From assembly GCA_034401795.1 (NCBI GenBank), contig CM067369.1, positions 88,897,312 to 88,961,311 of the forward strand: a stretch of DNA of 64,000 nucleotides, read 5' to 3'. The position numbers and the translations under genes were made by a program. Position 1 is the stretch's first letter. Each line of letters opens with the position of its first letter. This document shows positions 31,216 to 54,679 of the stretch, piece by piece. Origin of the DNA: Chaetoderma sp. LZ-2023a (taxonomy: Eukaryota > Mollusca > Caudofoveata > Chaetodermatida > Chaetodermatidae). The notes beneath the pieces are model-generated. The model saw nothing but the letters and a program-made list of their open reading frames with translations. It was not told where the DNA came from and did not search any database.

Positions 31216-32197
31216 TGCCACCTGCATGCCCGCCCGGACGGACGGTGGCATTACATAACACGCCAAAAAATTTGGCGGGGTATAAAAAATTTAAATGAGG
31301 TCTATGAATTTCAAATCTATGGTTACTTAATCAGAGCATTAACCTGAAAAAAAAGGAAATATTATTAGATACGGACAGACTTATACAGGTCGCCAGTAAA
31401 ACAATTTCAATAACATTCATAACATTACAATATTTTACAACAATATAACGATGTTGAACATGCTGCCGAAAATGTAATCATGTGAGAGGCTGCCGAAAAC
31501 GTATGGTTTTATGCACTATATTTGCGTCTCGATAGGCTTATGAAAACGAATTAATATTTGTGGCTTCCGAAATTACATGGCTGCTGAAACCGCCCGAGAC
31601 CCACTTCAACACTTGCCAACCCCAAATTTCAGGGTGTGAATCTGGTAAACTAGAGGTCAGACATGACATTTTAAAGTATATTTATCAACTAGAGATATCA
31701 CTGTTACATAAAATATATTCATCCTAATGATCCTTTATCTTAATTGCTTTTGAAAAATCGAGCCTAATGTAAATGTACCCTTTGTGTGGAATGGCTGAGC
31801 TATCTGCTATGTGATTATGTTACTACATAATCATGACATAGTGTTTGACAAGATTTTGTGCCGAACCAAGTCCATAGTAAACCCCGGATGGGGTAGAACC
31901 CAGATATAGCCTCAAGATCAAGAAGATCAAGCGTAAGCATAACCGTAAAGCATTGACAAATGACGCTTTATTATGCGGAAGCAAACGTGATGAAAGTTAT
32001 CAACGAAAATTGGTATCATGGTGAGTTTATCATTATACGTAAAACAGTGTTAACAGTAAAGCACATGATTAATGACACTTGATAATTTTGATGTGCTTTT
32101 ATGTGTACAAAAGTTATTAATGCACTTGCAATTTGTAATTTTACCGTCATTAAAGTTCATTTTTGACGTTTGCAATGAAAACAAATCAACTGCGCAT
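31216..32197. other. Intergenic, nothing recognised
   Basis: A short palindrome CGCCAAAAAATTTGGCG lies at about 31261-31277. Otherwise no element or exon could be supported. Confidence 0.45.
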
Positions 32198-32254
32198 GTC
32201 TGCAGTTGTCTGTAAAGCGAATTCGGCCCGAACCAATTCTCCATACATGGGCGT

Positions 32255-32324
32255 TGGCCCGGTTGGTAAAACCGGTGTGCTACACATGCTTGGAATTCCA
32301 ATCCAAAAGAGCCGGATTCAATCC
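32255..32324 (+). promoter_or_regulatory. tRNA-like Pol III A and B boxes
   Basis: TGGCCCGGTTGG (32255-32266) fits an A box, and GGATTCAATCC (32314-32324) fits a B box; in copy 2 the latter reads GGGTTCAATCC. The D-arm-like CCGGTTGGTAAAACCGG and the T-arm-like CCGGGTTCAATCCCCCG of copy 2 can fold. The head resembles a tRNA-derived SINE. The following TCCTTCGGAGGGGACG block looks like a SINE body motif. Confidence 0.55.
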
Positions 32325-33672
32325 CCCGTCCAGGCATGTGATCAAGGTGTAAAAACCTGCGTCATTCCATACGGCATTCACATGACACGTCCTTCGGAGG
32401 GGACGCAAAGCCGTCGAACTCGTCTCGTGTGGTGTCTGTTCCATGGGGGACGTAAAAGAACTCACGCCGAGTGGCAGGCCCAGTATCGGGAGCTCAGTCG
32501 TGAATACGCTCTGATAGTGTAAATAGTAGATGTCGGATGTCAGTATATCCAAGATGCCACAACTGAAGCCTGTAAGACGCCTATCTAAAAAGGCGGATGG
32601 TACAGATGTGAGCAGACTGGTCTTCACTGTGCGGCATAGTTGGCAGCCTGCTCTAACCAACCTACGCCACAGCTGTCAGCGACGCTGTCGGTGGCTCCCT
32701 GGTTCACTATCTAGACTGTCTGTAAATACGTTACAAATAATTGTAGAAACACCCCAAGGGGTGCGGATATGTGACCAGGAACCTCACTGAGCAGTGACGC
32801 TGTCAGTCTGGTCGGTACTATATACAGGAGGAAATTACGAAATACAATACATAGTACACGGTACAAAAATGGGTTCGATTTGATCGGCTTTAAAATTTCA
32901 CGTTCTGTTATCATATTTTACGCACAAGTTTTAATGACTTTTACATTGTTTGCCGTCTGCCAAGCGTGTACAGTGCTATTTCAACTAAAGACAGTCTTTT
33001 TATTAACTTTTCGTAAGAAGAGTGCTTCACAACTATATGTGTTACTTGTAACACCAGTTTTCGTGACTACAGACCCGAGACATGCCTGTCATCTCATCCA
33101 TGTGTGTATCACCGTCACCATCTTCATGTTGTGCCGCTACAGTGTATTTGCCATGTAAACATCTACTGTCGCTTCTGTGATCATTAACTGTGATAACTAA
33201 CATTCCACACAGGCTTCATCATCTTCATCATCCAGATCTGGATACGATACCACACTCATAGTATGAATACGATACCACATTCATCTTATGTGCTTAACCT
33301 TCACATCTTGTCATCCTTGTTGTGATCATGTCTACGTCTGCATTGTGATCTCATACACACCCACGTGTCACCACACTTGTCTTTCATGTTGTCATCGCCA
33401 GTTACTACATGTTTTAACATTATACATCATGTTTTAATATCTTCATCCTGTGATCGAACTTTTTAACAGAAACATTAAACATCACTATGATTTTAACGCT
33501 GTTCATTATTTTAATCTACTGAAACACATGAAAGTTTACAAACAATTTTAACAGAAAAAACTACTGAACAATTTTACTTTTAATCAGTTTTAAATAACTT
33601 ATCCTGATGAATCTGTACACAGAACAGTATTAGTTCTAGCAATCCAGTATTCTTTTAACATATCAATCACCC

Positions 33673-34017
33673 ATGGATCTGCCAAATGCAATTGCTATTC
33701 CTGGAGGCACATCATTCAGCATAGGACCAGATAGTGAAATAAGACAGAGCACTCGAACCAGAAATGTTAACTACAGAAGCCGAAACTGCTATTCACCACA
33801 AGCAAGTTCCAAGGCGACAAAAGACTATGCCATCAATAAACCTAAAGCACTTGAGAAGAAACTGACTCATACGAAGAGAGCCTCCATAACAATAAACTGG
33901 AAAGACGGTGGAAATCAATGTATAATTGAACTCTCAGCTGCAGTTCTAGAGCTATTCAAAGAATGTACTGATATCTCAAACCGACCCAACCACAGACAAC
34001 CGTGTCGAAAATTGTAG
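33673..34017 (+). pseudogene. ORF1 N-terminal part, LINE copy 1
   Basis: A 114-residue frame starts MDLPNAIAIPGG and is rich in Ser, Arg and Lys, with no recognisable domain. It ends in a stop at 34015-34017. The same reading frame resumes about 60 bases later with a heptad-like stretch (MELKREAAQLSE, then AYVAKLEVEVNDLKRSQN) interrupted by a TGA. A coiled coil here would be usual for LINE ORF1. The decay is shared by copy 2. Confidence 0.55.
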
Positions 34018-34158
34018 CAATAAGAAAGAAATTGCAGCGCGGACAGCAAAGCTAAAAAACCCTGGGAGATGGAATTGAAGCGCGAAGCAGCTCAACTGTC
34101 AGAATGAGCACGATCTGCACGAGCATATGTCGCAAAACTAGAGGTCGAAGTCAATGAC

Positions 34159-34901
34159 TTGAAGAGGTCACAAAATATAGCACAACCTCTACCTATCTGT
34201 ACCAGCAATTATGGCAATATACCTTCAATAAGCGAGTCAGTACCAACAGTTCAAAGCTATATTCCGATACAAGCAATAAATACCAGAGCTAGCCAATCTG
34301 ACCCAATCTCTGTTTCAACTTCTGTGAGCAACCAACTAATGATGGGCATCGAATTGATCAAACTCAAATTAAACAATCTATCAAACCAGAATGAGACATT
34401 AATCAATAGTATCTGCGCCATACCAACTCACGCACCAAATCCACCATGTCAACTACCATCATGGAATCAGCCAGCACAGATGGCATCTACTTTAGCACTT
34501 TCTGGACTCAATTCACTGTGGCAGCAACCACCAAGGCAATACCAATGGCACGAACCATAGCACCTAGCCTATTGTGGCAGCAACCGCCATGGCACCAAGC
34601 AATACCAATGGCACCAACCATAGCACCTAGCCTATTGTGTCAGCAACCGCTATGGTACCAGGCAATTCCAACGGCACAAAACACACCTATGCCTCCACGA
34701 GGATTTCCAACCGTTCTACCTCTACCTGTCAACATGATGCCCCAGAGAAGACATACTCAGCAGGTATATGCATACTATCCCAGTGCTACTTATCCATCCA
34801 TGTACCATCCAATATACCATTTCAATCAGATGCTGCCAGCCGACTATTATCACGCTCCAGTCTACCAACAGAACCATTATCCATATCAACCGCCATGATA
34901 C
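34159..34901 (+). pseudogene. ORF1 C-terminal Pro/Gln-rich part, LINE copy 1
   Basis: Two overlapping frames (34159-34560 and 34446-34898) cover one region, so a frameshift separates them. The second frame contains a roughly 20-residue tandem repeat (TIAPSLLWQQPPW.QAIPMAP) encoded by a 60-bp DNA repeat at about 34554-34675. A Tyr/His/Pro-rich tail follows (YYPSATYPSMYHPIYH). No zinc knuckle or RRM is visible. Assignment as ORF1 rests on position upstream of the endonuclease. Confidence 0.5.
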
Positions 34902-35421
34902 AAAGCACTGCCGTGAACAAGAGAACAGAGGATTCCAGCCCAAGCACCGATCACTGCATCTCAACCCACAAATGGACATTCACTGACACTCCCATTAGGG
35001 GGTAGGGCAACACACCAGAGAGTTACCAGAATTAGTCCACCATCACCACAACGCGGCTACGAACCATACCACCATAACAATACCAACCATGATGCCCCTC
35101 TGCCACCACCACCAGGCTTTGAACCGTCACAGAAGCATCCTCTCAATCACGATCTAAATGTAGTACCATCACACATGCCAACAGCAACTTTGCAAGGCTC
35201 AGCAGAAAATCCTAGAATAAACTGCCTAATACCGCCAGCAAATATGTCATCTTATCTAATGTTGGAGAAGACTCAACTAGTTACCTCGAACAATTTATCA
35301 GACAATTTGGCTGCTAATCAATAACTTATGAATAATTTTATGACATCACCGCCACTGCCGCCACTCGCTATATCAGTTTTAGAACAGTCACCAATAAACC
35401 TGAACCCAAACTGCTCTGACA

Positions 35422-36267
35422 ATGCTCATTTTTAGATCTAGGGCTGAATCCATCAGAATCACCACCATTAATATCGAGGGAGCAATAGGCAATAAAGCAT
35501 ACCTAGAAGAAATCATGACAATTACAGATGTCTTGTTGGTACAAGAACACCACCTGTATGAGTTTGAAATCTCAGTTCTATGTCACATCAACTCAAACTA
35601 CAATGTCATGGCCAAAGCATGTGATATGAACGACCCTATCTCACCTAAACAGCGTTCACATGGACACGGTGGCACAGCAATTTTCTGGAAGAAGGATTTA
35701 AATCATATGATAGAAACCGCTGAGGCAGGAAGCGACAGAGTATGCGTTATTTTGTTGAACTGCACTCCTCCTCTATGCATCACAACAGTTGACTGCCATT
35801 GCAGAGGATCACACTTGCTTCACGAATACAGCGAAATCCTGGATGAATTGAATGAGTTACATAACCAGTATCACACCACCTATACTGTCATAGTTGGCAG
35901 GGACTTCAACGGATCACTCACTGATCAACGAACCAATTCATTTATCCACCATCTGAAAGCCTTTGTCAAAGAACCTAAACTCTTCCAAGGAGGCGAGCCC
36001 GGCAACCAAAGTGCATTCTACTCAAAGTGTGGTCATTACAGTTCGCAGATCGACTGCATCTTTAGTTCAGAAAACAGACTCCTAACAGATTTAAGTATCA
36101 GCAGAAAGGATAGTTCACCGACCAACTCATCAAGCCATGTAGCTGTAAGTGTGACGGTACAAGGAGTGACTGTAGTAAAAGCAGCAGTGAAGAAACCACC
36201 GTCATATCCCGAACATGCTGGACCAAGTGCGACAACACATATTCAGAAGAAGTTTTGTCAATACTAG
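35422..36267 (+). CDS. AP-type LINE endonuclease, copy 1
   Basis: This 281-residue frame matches the apurinic/apyrimidinic-like endonuclease that nicks target DNA for LINE insertion. In order: TTINIEG (Asn), LLVQEHHLY (Glu), HGHGGTAIFWKK, VIVGRDFNG (GDFN-type, catalytic Asp and Asn), SSQIDCIFSS (Asp) and SSSHVAVSV (the terminal SDH box as SSH). All boxes are present and the frame is open, but it stops at HIQKKFCQY with no RT following. Family proteins continue into RT in the same frame, so this is an endonuclease cut off from its polymerase. The true start may be upstream of the chosen ATG. Confidence 0.8.
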   Translation: MLIFRSRAESIRITTINIEGAIGNKAYLEEIMTITDVLLVQEHHLYEFEISVLCHINSNYNVMAKACDMNDPISPKQRSHGHGGTAIFWKKDLNHMIETAEAGSDRVCVILLNCTPPLCITTVDCHCRGSHLLHEYSEILDELNELHNQYHTTYTVIVGRDFNGSLTDQRTNSFIHHLKAFVKEPKLFQGGEPGNQSAFYSKCGHYSSQIDCIFSSENRLLTDLSISRKDSSPTNSSSHVAVSVTVQGVTVVKAAVKKPPSYPEHAGPSATTHIQKKFCQY

Positions 36268-36388
36268 ACCAAGGTTTACCCGGTAATACAATCTCGGTAG
36301 CCCTCTGCATTTCATAGAGAATCCTGGAGATAAGAGCTCATGGAATTCGAGAATACGTTCCAATGTCAACTCTGTATGAACAATTCAG

Positions 36389-36937
36389 TTGCAAGAAGAA
36401 GCCCACATAAAGAGCGCACTAAAACACCATAGTATCGATAGCTGTCGGATTGGAAGAGCTCACAGCATCTGGACCACATCCACCAATACTCGCAATGTCC
36501 AGCGTGCTGCCATCAAACCGAAGGTTCTCACTGGAAGCTACACTTTTCAAGGTGTGAGAAGCAAATTTACTGGTCGACGGGAGTCTGACCTATGCCCAAT
36601 CTGCCACAAAGAACCAGAAGATGTAGCACACTTCCTATTCCGATGCACAAATGCTCACTTCAGCGCAGTCTGTTACCGGAAGCTTATAGAAACCCTAGTA
36701 TCTATCAATATCAATGAAAATACACTGCTCAGTCTAACGCGGTACCCAAACAAATGTTCACTGCTGTCTAATGCTGCCAAGCGGTCACTACTAGAAACCA
36801 TCGCATCTGCATCTCGCTGGCTCTGCTATAGAGTACATCACTTCAGAGCTAGAGACCTTAATTACCTACATAAATTCGGCACGCAAAAATCTAAACATGG
36901 AACTACCACATCCAAACTATGCAGTCGAGACAAGTAA
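36389..36937 (+). pseudogene. LINE pol C-terminus with CCHC motif, copy 1
   Basis: The frame opens on TTG and carries CPICHKEPEDVAHFLFRC (C-x2-C-x8-H-x4-C), the zinc-binding motif found after RT in many LINE pol proteins. A basic stretch (FTGRRESDL) and a helical tail (AAKRSLLETIASASRWLCYR) flank it. Just upstream another frame reads REYVPMSTLYEQFSCKKK, which looks like more of the same protein. It follows the endonuclease by only about 120 bp, so the whole RT domain is deleted between them. Confidence 0.7.
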
Positions 36938-37294
36938 TTCCGGGCGAAATGTACATTCATGACATTATATATAGTTTCCTGTTGATTCTTGAAGTTAGTG
37001 CATCAGCGTGTTGAACTTTGTACAAAGCCTTCATATAACTACTAACTTGGTGATGGTGCGGCTAATTCGTTTAGCATTACCCTGATGAAGGGGACTATAA
37101 CACAGTAACAGTAACGGTAGAAATCACCATCATCATTGATATTATCATCATTTTACGAGGCATAAGCCATTGGATTGTTATTGCCTCAGAGTTTTTTTGT
37201 TGTAGTATGGCTTGTTTAGTCTAATTCCAAAGTTCTGTTGATCATACTTGCTGCACGTCAATGTTAGGATATCAGTACCATGGAGGAGAACTGG

Positions 37295-37586
<292 letters not shown>

Positions 37587-37939
37587 TGAGAGGAAGTTAT
37601 TGGGTTGACACCGTTTGTTCCATATAGGCTTGCTACCAGTAGTGAGTACATCGTTTTCTTGCTTTGGATATGTTTTCCAGTACGGTTGTGTTAGCATGTG
37701 TAAATATATAAATATGTAAAATATGTTACAGCTGTCACACAAAGCGTACGTGTCTTTTACTTCTACTTCTATATGATAATTGATATTGTGGTGCGAGCCA
37801 TACAGCATCATTGGCACACCAACGAACATTCCTGATGATTGCCGAGTGACGTCATCACCTGCCTCTCGAGACCACAGACAATATCTGAATGGCCTACTGA
37901 GTGGACGTGGATGTGGCACACAGCTGCGTCCGAGTTATG

Positions 37940-38184
37940 TGTAGCTCGCCGGGTAATGTCGGGCCGTTCCAGTGTATCATGTCGACTCGCCTCGCCGCAA
38001 GTGCACGACGAGTGATGACGCTGGTTAGCATCTGGTCTCGGGGTGACGGACCTTGTACGAGACTGCCCTGCGGGAAACAAAACCGGCTCCTAAGGCCGGT
38101 GGAACTCAATCGTTCCGGTGGGGCCGTGCGACCATCTCCGCGAACATTAAACACAACTGTCTCATCCCAAGAATTTGTGTCACC
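37940..38184 (-). repeat. LTR A, outer fragment, copy 1
   Basis: It begins TGTAGCTCGCCGGG and aligns loosely with the LTRs at 58585 and 62254 (GGTTAGC..., CTCGGG..., GGGGCCGTGCGACCAT). It is cut at 38184 by the hAT element. 38177-38184 (GTGTCACC) is the hAT target site. Confidence 0.65.
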
Positions 38185-39061
38185 CAGGCGCGTAGCTATA
38201 GGCTATTCATGGGGGGGGGGGGGGGTGTTACGACCCTAAAGCGGGGGGGGGGGGGGGGTGGGTCTGGGGGTCCTCCCCCATAAAATTATGAAAAGTAGAT
38301 GCTCTGAGACATCATTTCCAGCAATCTTAATGATAAAACAAACTTGGATTCTACCGAGATATTACATACCTTTTGGAGAAAATGTACCCCAGTTTTGGTA
38401 ATTTGCTATACAAGTGTATTGAAATGAGTATTTCCAGAATTCTTTTCATAAATTTGATGTATTGGGAGTAATTTCTTGCATTCAGGTTGATAGAATCTTG
38501 GACTATCAATCTGGTCAAATATATCTTTCTACAAAACATTCCCTGGTTTGAAAGTCTTGCCCGTTGCTTTCACACACCCACCAAACCTAACAGCTACATT
38601 ACTTATATAATAATTGCAGAACGTTTGCATATTGCAGTATGCGTCTTAAGCTCCTTGAATATACATAGACACCGACAATGGCACCAAAATACACTGCACC
38701 ATTGCGATGCATCATACCCTGAAAAGATCTACTAATTCCGTTCGCTCAACACGTTAAACGTTTCAGTTTGTATTTGATAATTTGTAAAGTGTATATCTAA
38801 GGCGGCATAGACAAAAGAATGCTTGCCAATGCTATACAGGCCTAGCTAAACTGCAATACTGGTATGCAATTCAAAAGTCAAATGCTTAAAGGTTTCAAAA
38901 CTTCGGCATAAATATAACACATAAAGCAAAGTTGAACGTTAATCCACCTGACTCGAGCGAAAAGTCATTTATTCAAGCAAAACTGTATACAGTTTAATAA
39001 TGGGCGCATTACCCACGTGTATATATGCTCTATTGGGCTATTCATAATTTGGTAATCTTTA

Positions 39062-39230
39062 TCATAGGATAAAGTTAAGGCGTCGTGGTTTTCTTGCGAG
39101 GTGTGACAAGACGTCTTCAGCATTGACCTCAATGGTTCGATGTATGTTCATCAGCGCCAAGCCATTGAGGCGATCTTGACCAATGGTATTCCGAAGATAG
39201 GTTTTAAGTCGGCGAAGTGTAGAGAAAGAC
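39062..39230 (-). CDS. hAT transposase exon 3, copy 1
   Basis: This exon encodes the end of the dimerisation domain: SFSTLRRLKTYLRNTIGQDR, then LNGLALMNIHR. It follows a TTTGCAG acceptor (39231 is the last intron base) and ends with a stop at 39062. Joining to exon 2 restores STSSERSFSTL across the junction. The intron (39231-39663, 433 bp) holds the (CTA)n microsatellite. Confidence 0.85.
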
Positions 39231-39554
39231 CTGCAAACAGCAAGATATTTAATTAGTTCAAACAACAGCTACGACCACCCACCATCACCACCCACAATCT
39301 ACCACCACCAACAACAACAACAACAACACCTCCACGAGCCCCACCAGCAGCACAGCCGCATGGCCACCACCACAACCACCACCGCTGCTGCTGCTGCTAC
39401 TGCCCCGACCTCGCTGACAACGTTCCTTTTTGCTGCTGCTTGAGAGATGGATTTAGTGCTATATACCATTAATATAACTCAACGTGATAGTTACATTCAC
39501 CAAAATAGCTGCTTATGCTGCTGGTTTAACTACTACTGCTACTGCTGCTGCTGC

Positions 39555-39559
39555 TGCTG

Positions 39560-39624
<65 letters not shown>

Positions 39625-39626
39625 GT
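39555..39626. repeat. (CTA)n/(CTG)n microsatellite in the hAT intron, copy 1
   Basis: CTGCTG then CTACTA triplets. It lies wholly inside the intron between transposase exons 2 and 3. The corresponding tract in copy 2 is longer. Confidence 0.95.
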
Positions 39627-39663
39627 TTTAATATCCATTCGTACAACGCAACACAATTCATAC

Positions 39664-41678
39664 CTTTCACTTGAACTGGTTGACACAGGCAACGTTGCCA
39701 TGATCTTAATTAGTTTCCGTACAGTTGGGAACATGTCAACGTTACACTTAGCTAGAGCATCTAGAGCGTTCGCTGGAGGATTGTCCATTGTAGCTACACA
39801 TCGATACCATAGGTCCATTTCGCCCAGCAGTGTTAGGTCATTACAATTCAAGTCGAAGGCATATTTCTCAAGGAGTTCCTTAATCTGTGCTTGCTGAGCC
39901 ATCGAAGGTTTCGACGCGCCTCCATCTGGGATAAGACACATAAACCCGCCGAGAAGCTGTTTGTGAGCTAGTAGTCTGTCCTGGAGTTGGCTTAGAAAAT
40001 GATCTAGGAATGGCACAAATACAGCGATGCGGAAGTATTCTTCAGGATCAGCTGTTTGAACATTACATCGCTTAGTTTGTCTGTTAGCAGTACGTGGGAC
40101 AAGTATAGTAATGCCAAGCTTTTCACATGTCTTCTCAGCTTTAACATAAAGATCATTAAACACTTTTGTTGTGTCGGCTCTCATAGCCTTGATGGAGTCC
40201 TCAACATCTGTTGGAAAGTTAACTGCTGCAGCCAAGTCCGAGTTCTCCATCTGCATGAATCTGCAAAGCGGAAGGCTAATAGAGAACACCTTTGCAACAA
40301 CATTCGTAGTGATAATGAATTCAGGCTGTTTAATGGCACACACTAGTTGATTAGCATTTGTGGCAGAGTCTCTGTCTTGCCATTCACTAATAGTATTTAG
40401 CGACTCAATTACAGCGGGAAACAACTCCAAAAAAACTATGACAGCATCGTGCCTCTCAATCCATCGCGTTGGACACATTTGCTTTAGGTGTTTTCGCCTG
40501 GCATCTGGTAAATTGTCCTCAACAGCGTTAGCAAGGACAGCTTGTCGTTTTGGTGTGTTGAGAAAGTTATATATACTACTGATAGTGCCCATACTGTTCC
40601 GTCCTGATACCTCAGTACACGCATCTGACACAGCAAGGTTTAAACTATGTGCTCCACAATGAACATACGGGGCAAGTGGAAACTGTCTCACAATGTGTGC
40701 TTGTACACCGTTGAATCGTCCACTCATGGAAGCTGCGCCATCATAACCTTGTCCACGCATATAATCTAAATTTACACCGAAGTTTCGCAGACTATCTATG
40801 ATCACTTGAGCGAGGTTCTGGCCAGTGACATCATAAACAGGTACAAACTGAATGAAGTCTTCTCGAATCTGATGTCCCGATTCATCTATGTAGCGTGCGC
40901 ATAGTGAAAACTGCTCAATTCCCGAAATGTCAGCTGTTTCATCAGCGAGTATTGAAAAGCATTTTGCAGCATTGATGTTATTTACTAGCTTATCACGGAT
41001 CAAGAGATTGCAACAATCTACTATTTCATTTTGAATTTGAGGACTAATGTAGGAGGCATATGCTGAAAATGATGAGCATGATTGTAGGTGTTTGCGAAGG
41101 ACCGGATCACCGCCGTTTGCACGATACCGTAGCAGAGCTCTAAAGTTTCCCTCAATAGCGGATGTTTCTGCACAATTCAGTCTCAGAGGTCCAGAATCCC
41201 TGTGGCCACGAAGTGACAATCCCTGCCGGCCACAAAGAATAATAGTATCAATAACTGGTATAACTTTGAGACGATTTTCACGAATTATGGTTTTGGACGC
41301 ACTATCTATTTGGATGTCAATTGAATCAACTTTACGACCAGCAACAGACTGAAGGTTTCCAGCACTCGCAATGCACTCCTTGTGATAAGTGGTCTTCTCG
41401 TGATCGTTAAACAACTCAACAGCCTTTGTCCAGTTAGAAAAAGATATCCTCACAAGCTTTCCCAGAGACTGACTTCCAATACCCGCTCCTTCTGGCGCGA
41501 ATAGTGCACAGTACTTACAAAATGCACCACTCCGAACCTGACTGTATAAGAGCCACTTCCACCGATGCAGCCACTGGTGCTGGAATCGTAGATTACGCTT
41601 GCCTCGGGAAGAAAATATATAGTCTGCGTCAGGAACCCACGCATTACAAAGGAGGTCCAAGCGCTTCTCCATGGTTAA
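39664..41678 (-). CDS. hAT transposase exon 2, copy 1
   Basis: A 2015-bp exon identical in length to that of the complete copy. It has a TTF-type zinc finger (GAFCKYCALF, FSNWTKA, HEKTTYHKEC), the catalytic region (SILADETADISG, GQGYDGAASMSG) and CGAHSLNLAVSDA, CPTRWIERHD, FVPFLDHFLSQLQDR. It ends at the start of the dimerisation domain (VRKLIKIMATLPVSTSSSER). The acceptor is CTTAACAG and the donor AAG|GTATGA. It differs from copy 2 by a few residues (for example GGDPVL versus GGDQVL). Its upstream exon is lost to the N gap. Confidence 0.85.
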
Positions 41679-41787
41679 CTGTTAAGAAAATAAAAATCTA
41701 TTCTATTTACTTCCGACTAGTCAATAACCATTACATGTGCATTATTATCATTTATAGACCAAAGTAAAGGGCGTATATAACCGATGC

Positions 41788-41862
41788 GTCTGTTTGTTTG
41801 TTTGTTTGTTTGTTTGTTTGTTGGTTGGTTGGTTGGTTGGTTGTTTGGTTGGTTGGTGGGTT
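41788..41862. repeat. (GTTT)n/(GGTT)n microsatellite, copy 1
   Basis: GTTTGTTT followed by GGTTGGTT, in intron 1 of the hAT gene. Copy 2 (52659-52755) is longer. Confidence 0.9.
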
Positions 41863-42619
41863 GGTCTTGAACTGTACGAGATAAATGTATTAGGTGATCT
41901 GCCTCTTGTTCTATAATGACGAGGCTGTCATTCAAACCAAGGATTTTAAATTGTTACTAGACATCTGAATTCTGAATAAAATGTATGATTAAGATTAGGA
42001 TCGAATACTGGATGTGTGGGTTTTTGGAAAGCACAATGGCATGTGATGCTCACCTGGACCATTATCATTTACATTGAATTAATGAGTAGCATTTTAAAGG
42101 GACACTGTGACTAGCTGTACATACGCCGGAGGATGGACGGACACTCGCCAGTCGCCATGCCATACGCTTCATTGGACATTCTGGCCAGATGAGCCAACAA
42201 TATGGAATACAGTAATAAATTAGAACCTCTCACTCAAAGCTGGGGCCAGAATCAGATGAATGACCAGATTAGCAAGATATACTAATATTAGAAGGCATTC
42301 AGAGATTGCGTACATCCGCCACACACGATTACCGCCTAATAATTGATCTGTATAAAGGTCATCAGCCCAGCGACCTGAACCAATTTCCAGCATATTTTAT
42401 TAAGCATTTAATAATAAAACCGGCCTCCTTAGTGGTCTAGAGGAATGTCCATTCACAGACAGAGAAAACTCATTTTGGAGATTTACAATTGGAATAACTG
42501 CTCAGATATCCACGTCAGTCATAGCTGGTCCGATATCCACGCCAGTCATTCCAGTGGTAAATCTTAAAAAGATAGTCTTCTCTTGGCCTGCAAATAGACA
42601 TTAAACACACGTGTCATGC

Positions 42620-43119
42620 NNNNNNNNNNNNNNNNNNNNNNNNNNNNNNNNNNNNNNNNNNNNNNNNNNNNNNNNNNNNNNNNNNNNNNNNNNNNNNNNN
42701 NNNNNNNNNNNNNNNNNNNNNNNNNNNNNNNNNNNNNNNNNNNNNNNNNNNNNNNNNNNNNNNNNNNNNNNNNNNNNNNNNNNNNNNNNNNNNNNNNNNN
42801 NNNNNNNNNNNNNNNNNNNNNNNNNNNNNNNNNNNNNNNNNNNNNNNNNNNNNNNNNNNNNNNNNNNNNNNNNNNNNNNNNNNNNNNNNNNNNNNNNNNN
42901 NNNNNNNNNNNNNNNNNNNNNNNNNNNNNNNNNNNNNNNNNNNNNNNNNNNNNNNNNNNNNNNNNNNNNNNNNNNNNNNNNNNNNNNNNNNNNNNNNNNN
43001 NNNNNNNNNNNNNNNNNNNNNNNNNNNNNNNNNNNNNNNNNNNNNNNNNNNNNNNNNNNNNNNNNNNNNNNNNNNNNNNNNNNNNNNNNNNNNNNNNNNN
43101 NNNNNNNNNNNNNNNNNNN
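42620..43119. other. 500-N scaffold gap
   Basis: Exactly 500 N, the same size as the gap at 9666, so it is a placeholder and not a measured length. It separates the two copies of the 10.4-kb block. Confidence 0.95.
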
Positions 43120-43195
43120 ACGACACGACGATGTTCATGTCTGCAGTTGTCTGTAAGGCGAATTCGGCCCGAACCAATTCTCCATCCATGGGCGT

Positions 43196-43265
43196 TGGCC
43201 CGGTTGGTAAAACCGGTGTGCTACACATGCTTGGAATTCCAATCCAAAAGAGCCGGGTTCAATCC
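43196..43265 (+). promoter_or_regulatory. tRNA-like Pol III A and B boxes, copy 2
   Basis: A box TGGCCCGGTTGG at 43196-43207 and B box GGGTTCAATCC at 43255-43265, about 48 bases apart, normal tRNA-like spacing. The T-arm stem is complete here, unlike copy 1. Confidence 0.55.
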
Positions 43266-44613
43266 CCCGTTCAGGCATGTGATCAAGGTGTAAAAACCTG
43301 CGTCATTCCATACGGCATTCACATGACACGTCCTTCGGAGGGGACGCAAAGCCGTCGAACTCGTCTCGTGTGGTGTCTGTGCCATGGGGGACGTAAAAGA
43401 ACTCACGCTGAGTGGCAGGCCCAGTATCGGGAGCTCAGTCGTGAATACGCTCTGATAGTGTAAATAGTAGATGTCGGATGTCAGTATATCCAAGATGCCA
43501 CAACTGAAGCCTGTAAGACGCCTATCTAAAAAGGCGGATGGTACAGATGTGAGCAGACTGGTCTTCACTGTGCGGCATAGTTGGCAGCCTGCTCTAACCA
43601 ACCTACGCCACAGCTGTCAGCGACGCTGTCGGTGGCTCCCTGGTTCAATATCTAGACTGTCTGTAAATACGTTACAAATAATTGTAGAAACACCCCAAGG
43701 GGTGCGGATATGTGACCAGGAACCTCACTGAGCAGTGACGCTGTCAGTCTGGTCGGTACTATATATAGGAGGAAATTACGAAATACAATACATAGTACAC
43801 GGTACAAAAATGGGTTCGATTTGATCGGCTTTAAAATTTCACGTTCTGTTATCATATTTTACGCACAAGTTTTAATGACTTTTACATTGTTTGCCGTCTG
43901 CCAAGCGTGTACAGTGCTATTTCAACTAAAGACAGTCTTTTTATTAACTTTTCGTAAGAAGAGTGCTTCACAACTATATGTATTACTTGTAACACCAGTT
44001 TTCGTGACTACAGACCCGAGACATGCCTGTCATCTCATCCATGTGTGTATCACCGTCACCATCTTCATGTTGTGCCGCTACAGTGTATTTGCCATGTAAA
44101 CATCTACTGTCACTTCTGTGATCATTAACTGTGATAACTAACATTCCACACAGGCTTCATCATCTTCATCATCCAGATCTGGATACGATACCACACTCAT
44201 AGTATGAATACGATACCACATTCATCTTATGCGCTTAACCTTCACATCTTGTCATCCTTGTTGTGATCATGTCTACGTCTGCATTGTGATCTCATACACA
44301 CCCACGTGTCACCACACTTGTCTTTCATGTTGTCATCGCCAGTTACTACATGTTTTAACATTATACATCATGTTTTAATATCTTCATCCTGTGATCGAAC
44401 TTTTTAACAGAAACATTAAACATCACTATGATTTTAACGCTGTTCATTATTTTAATCTACTGAAACACATGAAAGTTTACAAACAATTTTAACAGAAAAA
44501 ACTACTGAACAATTTTACTTTTAATCAGTTTTAAATAACTTATCCTGATGAATCTGTACACAGAACAGTATTAGTTCTAGCAATCCAGTATTCTTTTAAC
44601 ATATCAATCACCC

Positions 44614-44958
44614 ATGGATCTGCCAAATGCAATTGCTATTCCTGGAGGCACATCATTCAGCATAGGACCAGATAGTGAAATAAGACAGAGCACTCGAACC
44701 AGAAATGTTAACTACAGAAGCCGAAACTGCTATTCACCACAAGCAAGTTCCAAGGCGACAAAAGACTATGCCATCAATAAACCTAAAGCACTTGAGAAGA
44801 AACTGACTCATACGAAGAGAGCCTCCATAACAATAAACTGGAAAGACGGTGGAAATCAATGTATAATTGAACTCTCAGCTGCAGTTCTAGAGCTATTCAA
44901 AGAATGTACTGATATCTCAAACCGACCCAACCACAGACAACCGTGTCGAAAATTGTAG
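44614..44958 (+). pseudogene. ORF1 N-terminal part, LINE copy 2
   Basis: 114 residues identical in sequence to the copy 1 frame, with the same terminating stop. The Lys-rich middle (KKLTHTKRASITINWKDGG) may bind RNA. No domain is recognised. Confidence 0.55.
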
Positions 44959-45099
44959 CAATAAGAAAGAAATTGCAGCGCGGACAGCAAAGCTAAAAAA
45001 ACCTGGGAGATGGAATTGAAGTGCGAAGCAGCTCAACTGTCAGAATGAGCACGATCTGCATGAGCATATGTCGCAAAACTAGAGGTCGAAGTCAATGAC

Positions 45100-45842
45100 T
45101 TGAAGAGGTCACAAAATATAGCACAACCTCTACCTATCTGTACCAGCAATTATGGCAATATACCTTCAATAAGCGAGTCAGTACCAACAGTTCAAAGCTA
45201 TATTCCGATACAAGCAATAAATACCAGAGCTAGCCAATCTGACCCAATCTCTGTTTCAACTTCTGTGAGCAACCAACTAATGATGGACATCGAATTGATC
45301 AAACTCAAATTAAACAATCTATCAAACCAGAATGAGACATTAATTAATAGTATCTGCGCCATACCAACTCACGCACCAAATCCACCATGTCAACTACCAT
45401 CATGGAATCAGCCAGCACAGATGGCATCTACTTTAGCACCTTCTGGACTCAATTCACTGTGGCAGCAACCACCAAGGCAATACCAATGGCACGAACCATA
45501 GCACCTAGCCTATTGTGGCAGCAACCGCCATGGTACCAAGCAATACCAATGGCACCAACCATAGCACCTAGCCTATTGTGGCAGCAACCGCTATGGTACC
45601 AGGCAATTCCAACGGCACAAAACACACCTATGCCTCCACCAGGATTTCCAACCGTTCTACCTCTACCTGTCAACATGATGCCCCAGAGAAGACAGACTCA
45701 GCAGGTATATGCATACTATCCCAGTGCTACTTATCCATCCATGTACCATCCAATATACCATTTCAATCAGATGCTGCCAGCCGACTATTATCACGCTCCA
45801 GTCTACCAACAGAACCATTATCCATATCAACCGCCATGATAC
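45100..45842 (+). pseudogene. ORF1 Pro/Gln-rich part, LINE copy 2
   Basis: Two overlapping frames as in copy 1. The 60-bp tandem repeat at about 45495-45615 is more regular here (WQQPPWYQAIPMAP repeated). Differences from copy 1 include a GCACC/GTACC change and R-to-P in MPPPGFPTV. Confidence 0.5.
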
Positions 45843-46362
45843 AAAGCACTGCCGTGAACAAGAGAACAGAGGATTCCAGCTCAAGCACCGATCACTGCAT
45901 CTCAACCCACAAATGGACATTCACTGACACTCCCATTAGGGGGTAGGGCAACACACCAGAGAGTTACCAGAATTAGTCCACCATCACCACAACGCGGCTA
46001 CGAACCATACCACCATAACAATACCAACCGTGATGCCCCTCTGCCACCACCACCAGGCTTTGAACCATCACAGAAGCATCCTCTCAATCACGATCTAAAT
46101 GTAGTACCATCACACATGCCAACAGCAACTTTGCAAGGCTCAGCAGAAAATCCTAGAATAAACTGCCTAATACCGCCAGCAAATATGTCATCTTATCTAA
46201 TGTTGGAGAAGACTCAACTAGTTACCTCGAACAATTTATCAGACAATTTGGCTGCTAATCAATAACTTATGAATAATTTTATGACATCACCGCCACTGCC
46301 GCCACTCGCTATATCAGTTTTAGAACAGTCACCAATAAACCTGAACCCAAATTGTTCTGACA

Positions 46363-47208
46363 ATGCTCATTTTTAGATCTAGGGCTGAATCCATCAGAAT
46401 CACCACCATTAATATCGAGGGAGCAATAGGCAATAAAGCATACCTAGAAGAAATCATGACAATTACAGATGTCTTGTTGGTACAAGAACACCACCTGTAT
46501 GAGTTTGAAATCTCAGTTCTATGTCACATCAACTCAAACTACAATGTCATGGCCAAAGCATGTGATATGAACGACCCTATCTCACCTAAACAGCGTTCAC
46601 ATGGACACGGTGGCACAGCAATTTTCTGGAAGAAGGATTTAAATCATATGATAGAAACCGCTGAGGCAGGAAGCGACAGAGTATGCGTTATTTTGTTGAA
46701 CTGCACTCCTCCTCTATGCATCATATCAGTTGACTGCCATTGCAGAGGATCACACTTGCTTCACGAATACAGCGAAATCCTGGATGAATTGAATGAGTTA
46801 CATAACCAGTATCACACCACCTATACTGTCATAGTTGGCAGGGACTTCAACGGATCACTCACTGATCAACGAACCAATTCATTTATCCACCATCTGAAAG
46901 CCTTTGTCAAAGAACCTAAACTCTTCCAAGGAGGCGAGCCCGGCAACCAAAGTGCATTCTACTCAAAGTGTGGTCATTACAGTTCGCAGATCGACTGCAT
47001 CTTTAGTTCAGAAAACAGACTCCTAACAGATTTAAGTATCAGCAGAAAGGATAGTTCACCGACCAACTCATCAAGCCATGTAGCTGTAAGTGTGACGGTA
47101 CAAGGAGTGACTGTAGTAAAAGCAGCAGTGAAGAAACCACCGTCATATCCCGAACATGCTGGACCAAGTGCGACTACACATATTCAGAAGAAGTTTTGTC
47201 AATGCTAG
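46363..47208 (+). CDS. AP-type LINE endonuclease, copy 2
   Basis: 281 residues with the same catalytic boxes as copy 1 (TTINIEG, VQEHHLY, GGTAIFW, VGRDFNG, QIDCIF, SSHVAV). It differs by CIISVDC versus CITTVDC and by the last residue. The open frame without RT is therefore present in both copies. Confidence 0.8.
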   Translation: MLIFRSRAESIRITTINIEGAIGNKAYLEEIMTITDVLLVQEHHLYEFEISVLCHINSNYNVMAKACDMNDPISPKQRSHGHGGTAIFWKKDLNHMIETAEAGSDRVCVILLNCTPPLCIISVDCHCRGSHLLHEYSEILDELNELHNQYHTTYTVIVGRDFNGSLTDQRTNSFIHHLKAFVKEPKLFQGGEPGNQSAFYSKCGHYSSQIDCIFSSENRLLTDLSISRKDSSPTNSSSHVAVSVTVQGVTVVKAAVKKPPSYPEHAGPSATTHIQKKFCQC

Positions 47209-47329
47209 ACCAAGGTTTACCCGGTAATACAATCTCGGTAGCCCTCTGCATTTCATAGAGAATCCTGGAGATAAGAGCTCATGGAATTCGAGAATACGTT
47301 CCAATGTCAACTCTGTATGAACAATTCAG

Positions 47330-47878
47330 TTGCAAGAAGAAGCCCACACAAAGAGCGCACTAAAACACCTTAGTATCGATAGCTGTCGGATTGGAAGAGC
47401 TCACAGCATCTGGACCACATCCACCAATACTCGCAATGTCCAGCGTGCTGCCATCAAACCGAAGGTTCTCACTGGAAGCTACACTTTTCAAGGTGTGAGA
47501 AGCAAATTTACTGGTCGACGGGAGTCTGACCTATGCCCAATCTGCCACAAAGAACCAGAAGATGTAGCACACTTCCTATTCCGATGCACCAATGCTCACT
47601 TCAGCGCAGTCTGTTACCGGAAGCTTATAGAAACCCTAGTATCTATCAATATCAATGAAAATACACTGCTCAGTCTAACGCGGTACCCAAACAAATGTTC
47701 ACTGCTGTCTAATGCTGCCAAGCGGTCACTACTAGAAACCATCGCATCTGCATCTCGCTGGCTCTGCTATAGAGTACATCACTTCAGAGCTAGAGACCTT
47801 AATTACCTACATAAATTCGGCACGCACAAATCTAAACATGGAACTACCACATCCAAACTATGCAGTCGAGACAAGTAA
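47330..47878 (+). pseudogene. LINE pol C-terminus with CCHC motif, copy 2
   Basis: Contains the same C-x2-C-x8-H-x4-C motif as copy 1. Differences are I-to-T, H-to-L and Q-to-H single changes. It lies 121 bp after the endonuclease stop. Confidence 0.7.
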
Positions 47879-48238
47879 TTCCGGGCGAAATGTACATTCA
47901 TGACATTATATATAGTTTCCTGTTGATTCTTGAAGTTAGTGCATCAGCGTGTTGAACTTTGTACAAAGCCTTCATATAACTACTAACTCGGTGATGGTGC
48001 GGCTAATTCGTTTAGCATTACCCTGATGAAGGGGACTATAACACAGTAACAGAAACGGTAGAAATCACCATCATCATTGATATTATCATCATTTTACGAG
48101 GCATAAGCCATTGGATTGTTATTGCCTCAGAGTTTTTTTGTTGTAGTATGGCTTGTTTAGTCTAATTCCAAAGTTCTGTTGATCATACTTGCTGCACGTC
48201 AATGTTAGGATATCAGTACCATGGAGGAGAACTGGTAT

Positions 48239-48438
<200 letters not shown>

Positions 48439-48791
48439 TGAGAGGAAGTTATTGGGTTGACACCGTTTGTTCCATATAGGCTTGCTACCAGTAGTGAGTA
48501 CATCGTTTTCTTGCTTTGGATATGTTTGCCAGTACGGTTGTGTTAGCATGTGTAAATATATAAATATGTAAAATATGTTACAGCTGTCACACAAAGCGTA
48601 CGTGTCTTTTACTTCTACTTCTATATGATAATTGATATTGTGGTGCGAGCCATACTGCATCATTGGCACACCAACGAACATTCCTGATGATTGCCGAGTG
48701 ACGTCATCACCCGCCTCTCGAGACCACAGACAATATCTGAATGGCCTACTGAGTGGACGTGGATGTGGCACACAGCTGCGTCCGAGTTATG

Positions 48792-49037
48792 TGTAGCTCG
48801 CCGGGTAATGTCGGGCCGTTCCAGTGTATCATGTCGACTCGCCTCGCCGCAAGTGCACGACGAGTGATGACACTGGTTAGCATCTGGTCTCGGGGTGACG
48901 GACCTTGTACGAGACTGCCCTGCGGGAAACAAAAACCGGCTCCTAAGGCCGGTGGAACTCAATCGTTCCAGTGGGGCCGTGCGACCATCTCCGCGAACAT
49001 TAAACACAACTGTCTCATCCCAAGAATTTGTGTCACC
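48792..49037 (-). repeat. LTR A, outer fragment, copy 2
   Basis: The LTR begins TGTAGCTCGCC, the plus-strand face of an LTR ending in CA. It aligns with LTR B over GGTTAGC, TCTCGGG, GTGGGGCCGTGCGACCAT, CACTGTCTC and GTGTCAC. It is interrupted after GTGTCACC (49030-49037). Confidence 0.65.
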
Positions 49038-49896
49038 CAGGCGCGTAGCTATAGGCTATTCATGGGGGGTGTTACGACCCTAATGCGGGGGGGGGGGTCT
49101 GGGGGTCCTCCCCCATAAAATTATGAAAAGTAGATGCTCTGAGACGTCATTTCCAGCAATCTTAATGATAAAACAAACTTGGATTCTACCGAGATATTAC
49201 ATACTTTTTGGAGAAAATGTACCCCAGTTTTGGTAATTTGCTATACAAGTGTATTGAAATGAGTATTTCCAGAATTCTTTTCATAAATTTGATGTATTGG
49301 GAGTAATTTCTTGCATTCAGGTTGATAGAATCTTGGACTATCAATCTGGTCAAATATATCTTTCTACAAAACATTCCCTGGTTTGAAAGTCTTGCCCGTT
49401 GCTTTCACACACCCACTAAACCTAACAGCTACATTACTTATATAATAATTGCAGAACGTTTGCATATTGCAGTATGCGTCTTAAGCTCCTTGAATATACA
49501 TAGACACCGACAATGGCACCAAAATACACTGCACCATTGCGATGCATCATACCCTGAAAAGATCTACTAATTCCGTTCGCTCAACACGTTAAACGTTTCA
49601 GTTTGTATTTGATAATTTGTAAAGTGTATATCTAAGGCGGCATAGACAAAAGAATGCTTGCCAATGCTATACAGGCCTAGCTAAACTGCAATACTGGTAT
49701 GCAATTCAAAAGTCAAATGCTTAAAGGTTTCAAAACTTCGGCATAAATATAACACATAAAGCAAAGTTGAACGTTAATCCACCTGACTCGAGCGAAAAGT
49801 CATTTATTCAAGCAAAACTGTATACAGTTTAATAATGGGCGCATTACCCACGTGTATATATGCTCTATTGGGCTATTCATAATTTGGTAATCTTTA

Positions 49897-50065
49897 TCAT
49901 AGGATAAAGTTAAGGCGTCGTGGTTTTCTTGTGAGGTGTGACAAGACGTCTTCAGCATTGACCTCAATGGTTCGATGTATGTTCATCAGCGCCAAGCCAT
50001 TGAGGCGATCTTGACCAATGGTATTCCGAAGATAGGTTTTAAGTCGGCGAAGTGTAGAGAAAGAC
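49897..50065 (-). CDS. hAT transposase exon 3 (dimerisation domain end)
   Basis: 169 bp. The acceptor TTTGCAG ends at 50066 and the stop is at 49897. It encodes SFSTLRRLKTYLRNTIGQDR, then LNGLALMNIHR and a basic tail (RKPRRLNFIL). This completes the hAT dimerisation domain begun in exon 2, with phase restored exactly (2009 coding bases from the ATG of exon 2 leave two bases, and this exon supplies the third). Confidence 0.88.
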
Positions 50066-50387
50066 CTGCAAACAGCAAGATATTTAATTAGTTCAAACAA
50101 CAGCTACGACCACCCACCATCACCACCCACAATCTACCACCACCAACAACAACAACAACAACACCTCCACGAGCCCCACCAGCAGCACAGCCGCATGGCC
50201 ACCACCACAACCACCACCGCTGCTGCTGCTGCTACTGCCCCGACCTCGCTGACAACGTTCCTTTTTGCTGCTGCTTGAGAGATGGATTTAGTGCTATATA
50301 CCATTAATATAACTCAACGTGATAGTTACATTCACCAAAATAGCTGCTTATGCTGCTGGTTTAACTACTACTGCTACTGCTGCTGCT

Positions 50388-50492
<105 letters not shown>

Positions 50493-50531
50493 GTTTTAAT
50501 ATCCATTCGTACAACGCAACACAATTCATAC

Positions 50532-52546
50532 CTTTCACTTGAACTGGTTGACACAGGCAACGTTGCCATGATCTTAATTAGTTTCCGTACAGCTGGGAAC
50601 ATGTCAACGTTACACTTAGCTAGAGCATCTAGAGCATTCGCTGGAGGATTGTCCATTGTAGCTACACATCGATACCATAGGTCCATTTCGCCCAGCAGTG
50701 TTAGGTCATTACAATTCAAGTCGAAGGCATATTTCTCAAGGAGTTCCTTAATCTGTGCTTGCTGAGTCATCGAAGGTTTCGACGCGCCTCCATCTGGGAT
50801 AAGACACATAAACCCGCCGAGAAGCTGTTTGTGAGCTAGTAGTCTGTCCTGGAGTTGGCTTAGAAAATGATCTAGGAATGGCACAAATACAGCGATGCGG
50901 AAGTATTCTTCAGGATCAGCTGTTTGAACATTACATCGCTTAGTTTGTCTTTTAGCAGTACGTGGGACAAGTATAGTAATGCCAAGCTCTTCACATGTCT
51001 TCTCAGCTTTAACATAAAGATCATTAAACACTTTTGTTGTGTCGGCTCTCATAGCCTTGATGGAGTCCTCAACATCTGTTGGAAAGTTAACTGCTGCAGC
51101 CAAGTCCGAGTTCTCCTTCTGCATGAATCTGCAAAGCGGAAGGCTAATAGAGAACACCTTTGCAACAACATTCGTAGTGATAATGAATTCAGGCTGTTTA
51201 ATGGCACACAATAGTTGATTAGCATTTGTGGCAGAGTCTCTGTCTTGCCATTCACTAATAGTATTTAGCGACTCAATTACAGCGGGAAACAACTCCAAAA
51301 AAACTATGACAGCATCGTGCCTCTCAATCCATCGCGTTGGACACATTTGCTTTAGGTGTTTTCGCCTGGCATCTAGTAAATTGTCCTCAACAGCGTTAGC
51401 AAGGACAGCTTGTCGTTTTGGTGTGTTGAGAAAGTTATATATACTACTGATAGTGCCCATACTGTTCCGTCCTGATACCTCAGTACACGCATCTGACACA
51501 GCAAGGTTTAAACTATGTGCTCCGCAATGAACATACGGGGCAAGTGGAAACTGTCTCACAATGTGTGCTTGTACACCGTTGAATCGTCCACTCATGGAAG
51601 CTGCGCCATCATAACCTTGTCCACGCATATAATCTAAATTTACACCGAAGTTTCGCAGACTATCTATGATCACTTGAGCGAGGTTCTGGCCAGTGACATC
51701 ATAAACAGGTACAAACTGAATGAAGTCTTCTCGAATCTGATGTCCCGATTCATCTATGTAGCGTGCGCATAGTGAAAACTGCTCAATTCCCGAAATGTCA
51801 GCTGTTTCATCAGCGAGTATTGAAAAGCATTTTGCAGCATTGATGTTATTTACTAGCTTATCACGGATCAAGAGATTGCAACAATCTACTATTTCATTTT
51901 GAATTTGAGGACTAATGTAGGAGGCATATGCTGAAAATGATGAGCATGATTGTAGGTGTTTGCGAAGGACCTGATCACCGCCGTTTGCACGATACCGTAG
52001 CAGAGCTCTAAAGTTTCCCTCAATAGCGGATGTTTCTGCACAATTCAGTCTCAGAGGTCCAGAATCCCTGTGGCCACGAAGTGACAATCCCTGCCGGCCA
52101 CAAAGAATAATAGTATCAATAACTGGTATAACTTTGAGACGATTTTCACGAATTATGGTTTTGGACGCACTATCTATTTGGATGTCAATTGAATCAACTT
52201 TACGACCAGCAACAGACTGAAGGTTTCCAGCACTCGCAATGCACTCCTTGTGATAAGTGGTCTTCTCGTGATCGTTAAACACCTCAACAGCCTTTGTCCA
52301 GTTAGAAAAAGATATCCTCACAAGCTTTCCCAGAGACTGACTTCCAATACCCGCTCCTTCTGGCGCGAATAGTGCACAGTACTTACAAAATGCACCACTC
52401 CGAACCTGACTGTATAAGAGCCACTTCCACCGATGCAGCCACTGGTGCTGGAATCGTAGATTACGCTTGCCTCGGGAAGAAAATATATAGTCTGCGTCAG
52501 GAACCCACGCATTACAAAGGAGGTCCAAGCGCTTCTCCATGGTTAA
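50532..52546 (-). CDS. hAT transposase exon 2 (zinc finger and catalytic core)
   Basis: Core of a TTF-zinc-finger hAT transposase (ZMYM-like, DUF4371 group), which cuts and pastes the element in the nucleus. TTF-type finger: WLLYSQVRSGAFCKYCALF and the NWTKA/HEKTTYHKEC segment. Catalytic fold: CFSILADETADISG (first acid), MRGQGYDGAASMSG (second acid), CGAHSLNLA, CPTRWIERHDA, and EEYFRIAVFVPFLDHFLSQL, where the last acidic residue is expected. The dimerisation domain starts at FPAVRKLIKIMATLPVSTSS. Splice sites: CTTAACAG acceptor (52547-52548) and AAG|GTATGA donor (50532/50531). No stop or frameshift. The polyvaline seen if the donor is ignored is intronic (CTA)n. Confidence 0.9.
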
Positions 52547-52658
52547 CTGTTAAGAAAATAAAAATCTATTCTATTTACTTCCGACTAGTCAATAACCATT
52601 ACATGTGCATTATTATCATTTATAGACCAAAGTAAAGGGCGTATATAACCGATGCGTC

Positions 52659-52755
52659 TGTTTGTTTGTTTGTTTGTTTGTTTGTTTGTTGGTTGGTTGG
52701 TTGGTTGGTTGGTTGGTTGGTTGGTTGGTTGGTTGGTTGTTTGGTTGGTTGGTGG
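52659..52755. repeat. (GTTT)n/(GGTT)n microsatellite, copy 2
   Basis: Same site as 41788-41862, with about ten GGTT units against five in copy 1. Confidence 0.9.
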
Positions 52756-53292
52756 GTTGGTCTTGAACTGTACGAGATAAATGTATTAGGTGATCTGCCT
52801 CTTGTTCTATAATGACGAGGCTGTCATTCAAACCAAGGATTTTAAATTGTTACTAGACATCTGAATTCTGAATAAAATGTATGATTAAGATTAGGATCGA
52901 ATACTGGATGTGTGGGTTTTTGGAAAGCACAATGGCATGTGATGCTCACCTGGACCATTATCATTTACATTGAATTAATGAGTAGCATTTTAAAGGGACA
53001 CTGTGACTAGCTGTACATACGCCGGAGGATGGACGGACACTCGCCAGTCGCCATGCCATACGCTTCATTGGACATTCTGGCCAGATGAGCCAACAATATG
53101 GAATACAGTAATAAATTAGAACCTCTCACTCAAAGCTGAGGCCAGAATCAGATGAATGACCAGATTAGCAAGATATTCTAATATTAGAAGGCATTAGAGA
53201 TTGCGTACATCCGCCACACACGATTACCGCCTAATAATTGATCTGTATAGGTCATCAGCCCAGCGACCTGAACCAATTTCCAGCATATTTTA

Positions 53293-53548
53293 TTAAGCAT
53301 TTAATAATAAAACCGGCCTCCTTAGTGGTCTAGAGGAATGTCCATTCGCAGACAGAGAAAACTCCTTTTGGAGATTTACAATTGGAATAACTGCTCAGAT
53401 ATCCACGTCAGTCATAGCTGGTCCGATATCCACGCCAGTCATTCCAGTGGTAAATCTTAAAAAGATAGTCTTCTCTTGGCCTGCAAATAGACATTAAAAA
53501 AGCAAATATTTTGATTTTCAGGAACAAATTTAGTCACTAAAGGGTTAA
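53293..53548. mobile_element. piggyBac-type MITE inside hAT intron 1
   Basis: TTAA at 53293-53296 and 53545-53548. The right end is ACTAAAGGG|TTAA. The inner arms (GAATAACTGCTCAGATATCC, then CCAGTCATTCCAGTGGTAAA, AGTCTTCTCTTGGCCTGCAA) match the family at 2211. In copy 1 the same element (from about 42372) is cut by the N gap. Confidence 0.6.
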
Positions 53549-53944
53549 ACTGTTTAATCCATTACGTCACAGAATCCCAATTTTAAAATCATTATATACA
53601 ATTAGACGAGCTATGTTAATTTGAAATTAATTTTACTGGAAACTCCCACAACTCGTTATAGGCCTATTCAAGACTCATTGAGGTGTAATACAAATATATT
53701 TCGAAATTGCGTTATTTAATTTTTAATGTGGTAACTGTAAGACTCTACTAGTGCTAGTAGCCATAGTTGCTTGCTTAATTATAGCGGATCTCTCGTATTA
53801 TTTGTTAATCTTGTCTATCGGGGTTGTTGGGGGGTATTGCGAACGTAATACCAAAACTAGGCGGCATATGCCGTTGAAGCAGCGACCTTTTATGATTGAT
53901 GAATTAAATACCAATTGAAAATTGGGGAAGGGGTCTAAACTAAA

Positions 53945-54530
53945 TCTCGTCTTGCAAAGCACATTCTTAGGGGTAACCCACTGTTAGCCACATAGCTAAT
54001 TTGGTTGAATTTCACCCATCAGTTTGGGAGGAGTTAGCGTGACGGACAGTTAGACAATCAATTTGACCTTTTGACTCCTGTCACGCTGCCTTGAGGGCGG
54101 AGCCTAATCAAAATGTCGCCTTGCAAAGTGCATCCTCTGGGTATCCCACATACCAAAGTTGGTTCAATTCCACTAAACAGTTGGAGAGCAGTTAGCGTAA
54201 TGGACAGACAGACGGGTGGACGGACGGACGAACAAAGGGTCCTTTGCTGTAGGATGGATGTAATGATGGTAGAGAAGCATCCTGTTAAGTCTCATTGTGA
54301 TCGGATAACCCATTGATGAATTAAATATTGTATCGTTTGAAAACCCCCATTTTGAACGAAAACCTTAACGTTGAATGTGTGAGCCTCATGGAGTAATGGA
54401 ATGAGGGACAGACAGACGGGCTAACAAAGGTCCGCATGGTGTAGGATGGATGCAATGATGGCATAGAAGCATCCTGTTTCATTGTGATCGCATAACACAT
54501 TGATCCTTTATATTTCAATTTAAAAAACAA
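53945..54530. repeat. Diverged tandem repeats inside hAT intron 1
   Basis: CTTGCAAAGCACATTCTTAG...GGAGTTAGCGTGACGGACAG (from 53951) recurs as CTTGCAAAGTGCATCCTCTG...AGTTAGCGTAATGGACAGAC (from 54119). ATGATGGTAGAGAAGCATCC (54263) recurs as ATGATGGCATAGAAGCATCC (54458). GACGGACGG-type microsatellite words link them. Confidence 0.6.
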
Positions 54531-54679
54531 TACATTTTGATGGTGGAATTAGGTAACGGACTAACAATTAAAGGCTCCTATAGTCGTAGGCCTTATGGAG
54601 CCGCTCGACGATCGCGGCTAATTAAAATTCATGCATTTATGTCACTGTCATTATTGTACAAATACTCTTAGAAACTCAC

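Follow-up and report, generated by a model that had tools for sequence, protein, structure and literature searches.

Self-comparison by self-BLAST of the window, i.e. the whole 64-kb stretch of DNA that was analysed, revealed two near-identical copies of a 10.4-kb segment, which lie in direct orientation and flank a scaffold gap of 500 N (42620-43119, no strand). Copy 1 (32195-42605, 10,411 bp, + strand) forms the 3' end of the left contig, and copy 2 (43136-53498, 10,363 bp, + strand) forms the 5' start of the right contig, both being delimited by self-BLAST and alignment. The arrangement is a dovetail: the sequence that closes the left contig recurs as the opening sequence of the right one. 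According to the alignment, 14 bp separate the end of copy 1 from the gap, and another 16 bp lie between the gap and copy 2.

The differences between the copies were counted from a global alignment, which contained 65 substitutions in 10,301 aligned columns (99.4% identity). After four simple-repeat stretches were masked, 60 substitutions were counted in 9,814 columns (0.61%), namely 38 transitions and 22 transversions. Eight indels distinguish the copies: three in microsatellites (89 bp in a TA run, 33 bp in an ACT run and 28 bp in a GTTG run), two of 9 bp each in G-rich runs and three small ones of 1, 1 and 2 bp, one of which sits at an A run. The copies have 8,155 distinct 31-mers in common; 1,971 of the 10,126 in copy 1 and 1,940 of the 10,095 in copy 2 are private to that copy (counted in the assembled sequence, not in reads). 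Only 6 distinct 31-mers of either copy were found in the rest of the window, and the recurrence of 8,155 of the copy-1 31-mers in copy 2 as against 6 elsewhere rules out chance similarity. A preceding sequence-only reading had reported near-identical direct copies of 10.4 kb around a gap, and this was borne out. Its account of their extent was accurate except for the left edge, placed at 32198 and found here 3 bp away. It had also stated that each copy abuts the gap, which is nearly so, although 14 bp and 16 bp of unmatched sequence intervene.

The right edge of the segment falls within a hAT-type DNA transposon. The hallmarks of hAT elements are an 8-bp target site duplication (TSD), short terminal inverted repeats (TIRs) and a transposase with a hAT C-terminal dimerisation region, and all of these were found in the element that spans copy 2 and its right flank (49038-55247, - strand). 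It is bordered by the 8-bp repeat GTGTCACC at 49030-49037 and 55248-55255, and its terminal repeats, CAGGCGCGTAGCTA and CAGGGGCGTAGCTA, are alike at 13 of 14 positions. The 8-mer is unremarkable alone, with further occurrences at 33365, 44306 and 62452; however, the element was the best candidate of a scan for TSD plus TIRs, where the next candidate with an exact 8-bp repeat scored 7/11. The transposase frame (50348-52549, - strand) matches DUF4371 (E = 8e-23). An intron was predicted in the transposase gene (50066-50531, 466 bp, GT...AG, - strand), and the frames joined across it give SSSERSFSTLRRLKTYLR..., which matches Dimer_Tnp_hAT, the hAT dimerisation region (E = 2e-6). The ACT microsatellite at 50364-50492 sits inside this putative intron, and the 733-aa frame ends in a poly-valine tail that probably derives from the intron and does not belong to the protein.

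In copy 1 the same element (38185-42605, - strand) retains its left 8-bp repeat (38177-38184) and lacks its right end. The contig end at 42605 cuts this element, so the edge of the segment coincides with a contig end and not with the end of an element. The right boundary had earlier been said to cut through a hAT element that is complete only in copy 2, and indeed both ends are present only in copy 2 together with its flank. These paired ends support the view that the segment continues naturally into the sequence to the right of 53498. No element straddling the left edge (32195) in the way the hAT straddles the right one was recognised among the repeats listed for 30900-37290.

Each copy also contains an endonuclease ORF (Exo_endo_phos, E = 2.8e-6) on the + strand, within 35404-36937 in copy 1 and 46345-47878 in copy 2. 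About 110 bp after it, an ORF with a weak match to zf-RVT was found (E = 0.0033, below its cut-off). The order of the two is that seen at the two ends of a LINE polyprotein, and there is no room between them for a reverse transcriptase. The pair is possibly an internally deleted LINE derivative.

The unmatched tips of the two contigs were compared with the sequences that they might continue. The left tip (42606-42619, 14 bp, + strand) agrees with the continuation of copy 2 at 4/14 positions and with the start of copy 2 at 5/14, and the right tip (43120-43135, 16 bp, + strand) agrees with the left flank of copy 1 at 4/16 positions and with the end of copy 1 at 6/16. An exact suffix-prefix match of at least 12 bases across the gap was absent, and no exact match of at least 11 bases to either tip was found elsewhere in the window; on the minus strand, 10 bases of the left tip are matched at 32381 and 43322. 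Among seven gapped comparisons, weak similarity was seen between the left tip and the right tip together with the start of copy 2 (score 14, p = 0.0175) and between the right tip and the reverse complement of the left tip (p = 0.047), and the remaining five gave p = 0.19, 0.97, 0.093, 0.72 and 0.74. None of the seven was significant once corrected for seven comparisons. As to the origin of the tips, read-end errors, leftover adapter or a haplotype difference are our guesses.

The window contains two runs of N, each of 500 N. At the other one (gap 1, 9666-10165, no strand), the final 55 bases of the contig to its left (9611-9665, + strand) reappear unchanged as the opening 55 bases of the contig to its right (10166-10220, + strand). 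This dovetail is exact (55/55 bases) and reaches the last and the first base of the two contigs, unlike the overlap at 42620-43119, which stops short of the contig ends. It indicates that overlapping contigs were set side by side here without being merged, and at gap 1, with its 55-bp dovetail, probably no sequence is missing. A control set of 300 pseudo-gaps was placed at random in the same window. Matches within 20 bp of both gap edges were found for 2/2 real gaps versus 4/300 pseudo-gaps, and all 4 positive pseudo-gaps fall in arrays of a ~150-bp minisatellite (24147-25159 and 30127-31212). These arrays are related, lie ~5 kb apart and have a unit of about 147-152 bp with 76-83% matches. 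Short exact overlaps are what neighbouring contigs of a de Bruijn graph share. The overlap at gap 1 resembles such sharing, so the two gaps need not have the same origin.

Long-read errors are expected to be mostly indels, and some of them favour transitions. Outside the simple repeats, the copies differ by 60 substitutions versus 3 indels of 1-2 bp, and the proportion of transitions (38/60) is above the random one third (p = 2e-6). This pattern fits natural variation better than raw long-read error. The sequence-only reading had regarded the differences as those expected between alleles; the pattern agrees with that, but SNPs and microsatellites alone cannot separate alleles from recent paralogues. 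The divergence of 0.61% falls within the range of heterozygosity of 0.1-1.6% that is given for the vertebrate genomes of PMC8081667. The density of SNPs along the copies is Poisson-like, with variance-to-mean ratios of 0.99, 1.03 and 1.46 in bins of 250, 500 and 1000 bp (clustering p = 0.45, 0.49 and 0.40, respectively, with low power), and the longest SNP-free run comprises 769 columns (p = 0.39). No sign of allelic recombination was seen in the SNP density, at this low power. SNP clustering was dropped as a test of alleles versus paralogues, a spacing indistinguishable from Poisson being uninformative. The ratios of synonymous to nonsynonymous changes between the copies (2:9 in the hAT frame, 1:5 in the endonuclease and 1:3 in the C-terminal ORF) were also dropped as a discriminator, because they are about as unselected change would give.

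The dovetailed contig ends, the gap that separates the copies, the predominance of substitutions among the differences and the second dovetailed gap all fit one locus whose haplotypes remained unmerged at overlapping contig ends, and we favour this allelic form of assembly artefact, with a probability of about 0.83, over a real duplication. A right edge inside the hAT, with both ends of the element present only in copy 2 and its flank, is also expected if this edge is the end of a contig. The assembler would have followed one haplotype when it extended the left contig through the locus, and the other haplotype when it opened the right contig at the point where the locus begins. A divergence of ~0.6%, together with several highly variable simple repeats, could have blocked merging of the overlap, and the scaffolder would have placed both contigs next to each other, with 500 N as a fixed spacer. 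In the genome there would then be a single copy of the locus and a single hAT, which reaches its right end at 55247. Both the allelic status of the two versions and this history of the assembly are what we infer from the arrangement. Some points were counted against allelic versions: the 14- and 16-bp tips lack a match both in the other version and in the neighbouring copy, the SNP density is Poisson-like, and an excess of transitions may also result from some long-read errors. Junk tips are what an overlap of contig ends would most easily have. The proposal of the earlier reading that two haplotypes were placed in tandem across a scaffold gap is supported as the best interpretation of the sequence alone. 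On the other hand, its argument that a true duplication would not be expected to end at a gap is weaker than stated, since assemblers do break in repeats.

The duplicated stretch fits the descriptions of an already known kind of assembly artefact in PMC9516828, PMC8081667 and PMC7203741. In PMC9516828, false duplications are marked by a depth reduced to half, a gap that parts the two copies within one scaffold, discordant pairs and single-copy k-mers, and the 500 N at 42620-43119 between the copies correspond to the gap named there for false heterotype duplication. In PMC8081667, the term "flanking contigs" denotes homozygous sequence that is joined to one haplotype on the 5' side and to the other on the 3' side, and scaffolding is described as turning overlaps at contig boundaries into tandem copies with a gap between them. 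Apart from the 14- and 16-bp tips, this topology (type 2 in Extended Data Fig. 5a) was found here. As in the heterotype "flanking contigs" (PMC8081667, legend of Extended Data Fig. 5; PMC9516828), the near-identical copies lie on one scaffold with a gap between them, one version closes the left contig while the other opens the right contig, and the differences are of the substitution type. Unlike in that type, 14-16 bp are unmatched at each contig tip, and the present case is known from the assembled sequence. The "heterozygous overlap" of purge_dups (PMC7203741) is another name for the flanking-contigs heterotype duplication. The same source states that the primary contigs of highly heterozygous outbred species retain such overlaps, and its authors know of no long-range scaffolder that deals with them. 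False homotype duplication, as outlined in PMC8081667, shares with our case the dovetail at contig ends, but the two 10.4-kb copies are distinguished by 60 sites outside simple repeats and are more allele-like. The exact 55-bp overlap at gap 1 fits false homotype duplication, which is described there as an overlap at contig boundaries.

The next explanation is that the 10.4-kb pair is itself a homotype false duplication, in which both contigs represent one haplotype and differ by sequencing errors that were left uncorrected where coverage is thin at their ends. A length of 10.4 kb is plausible for a long read and was counted in its favour, the differences in the length of G runs and the unmatched tips could be errors, and the excess of transitions could have the same source. 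In addition, homotype duplications are often located at contig boundaries and are about as long as a read, according to PMC8081667. Nevertheless, the transposase and endonuclease frames remain open in both copies. Moreover, long-read errors should consist mostly of indels, whereas 60 substitutions are accompanied by 3 small indels; we consider this explanation unlikely. That the duplication is an artefact of either form, allelic or homotype, appears very probable.

A real and recent tandem duplication, with its junction or spacer unassembled at the gap, is less likely still. Such an event would have copied the LINE-derived endonuclease gene and most of the hAT, possibly on one haplotype only, which we regard as improbable to the same degree. 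The direct tandem orientation of the copies agrees with it, as does the weak similarity of the left tip to the beginning of the right contig (its tip and the start of copy 2), which lost significance on correction. If the tips are real sequence, they speak against a simple tandem duplication, because they lack a spacer-free junction (5/14 and 6/16 matches, a comparison that presumes real tips); if they are junk, they are silent either way and could not count against a real duplication. A spacer longer than the tips is compatible with this result. However, a tandem duplication would need both inner edges to lie at most 16 bp from the gap and the right edge to lie inside the hAT, and the other gap, whose flanks share only 55 bp, was dovetailed too. 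Two separate insertions, or an older segmental duplication joined by mis-scaffolding, are hardly credible: nothing beyond the existence of two copies favours them, the right edge lies within the hAT and not at an element end, the left edge showed no recognisable element boundary, the rest of the window (the extent of the search) contains only 6 of the copies' distinct 31-mers, and inner sides of 14-16 bp make a comparison of flanks hardly possible.

If the scaffold were taken at face value, it would gain a false 10.4-kb tandem duplication, an extra copy of the hAT and an extra endonuclease gene. The finding that one locus is probably represented by two haplotypes here matters only as a caution. 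The overlap at both gaps of this one window suggests that the assembly may hold further false duplications of this kind, and a gap of 500 N in it does not necessarily signify missing sequence.

Two groups of frames on the - strand lie on either side of gap 1 (3478-8333 and 10614-15340). For 10614-11315, no profile matches were obtained. The sole match of the recombinase type, to Phage_int_SAM_4, is weak (E = 0.0026, below the cut-off) and lies at 3478-4455. Each group contains an RVT_1 match (E = 5e-10 at 4752-5849 and E = 3.8e-9 at 12181-13011), and both groups look DIRS-like.
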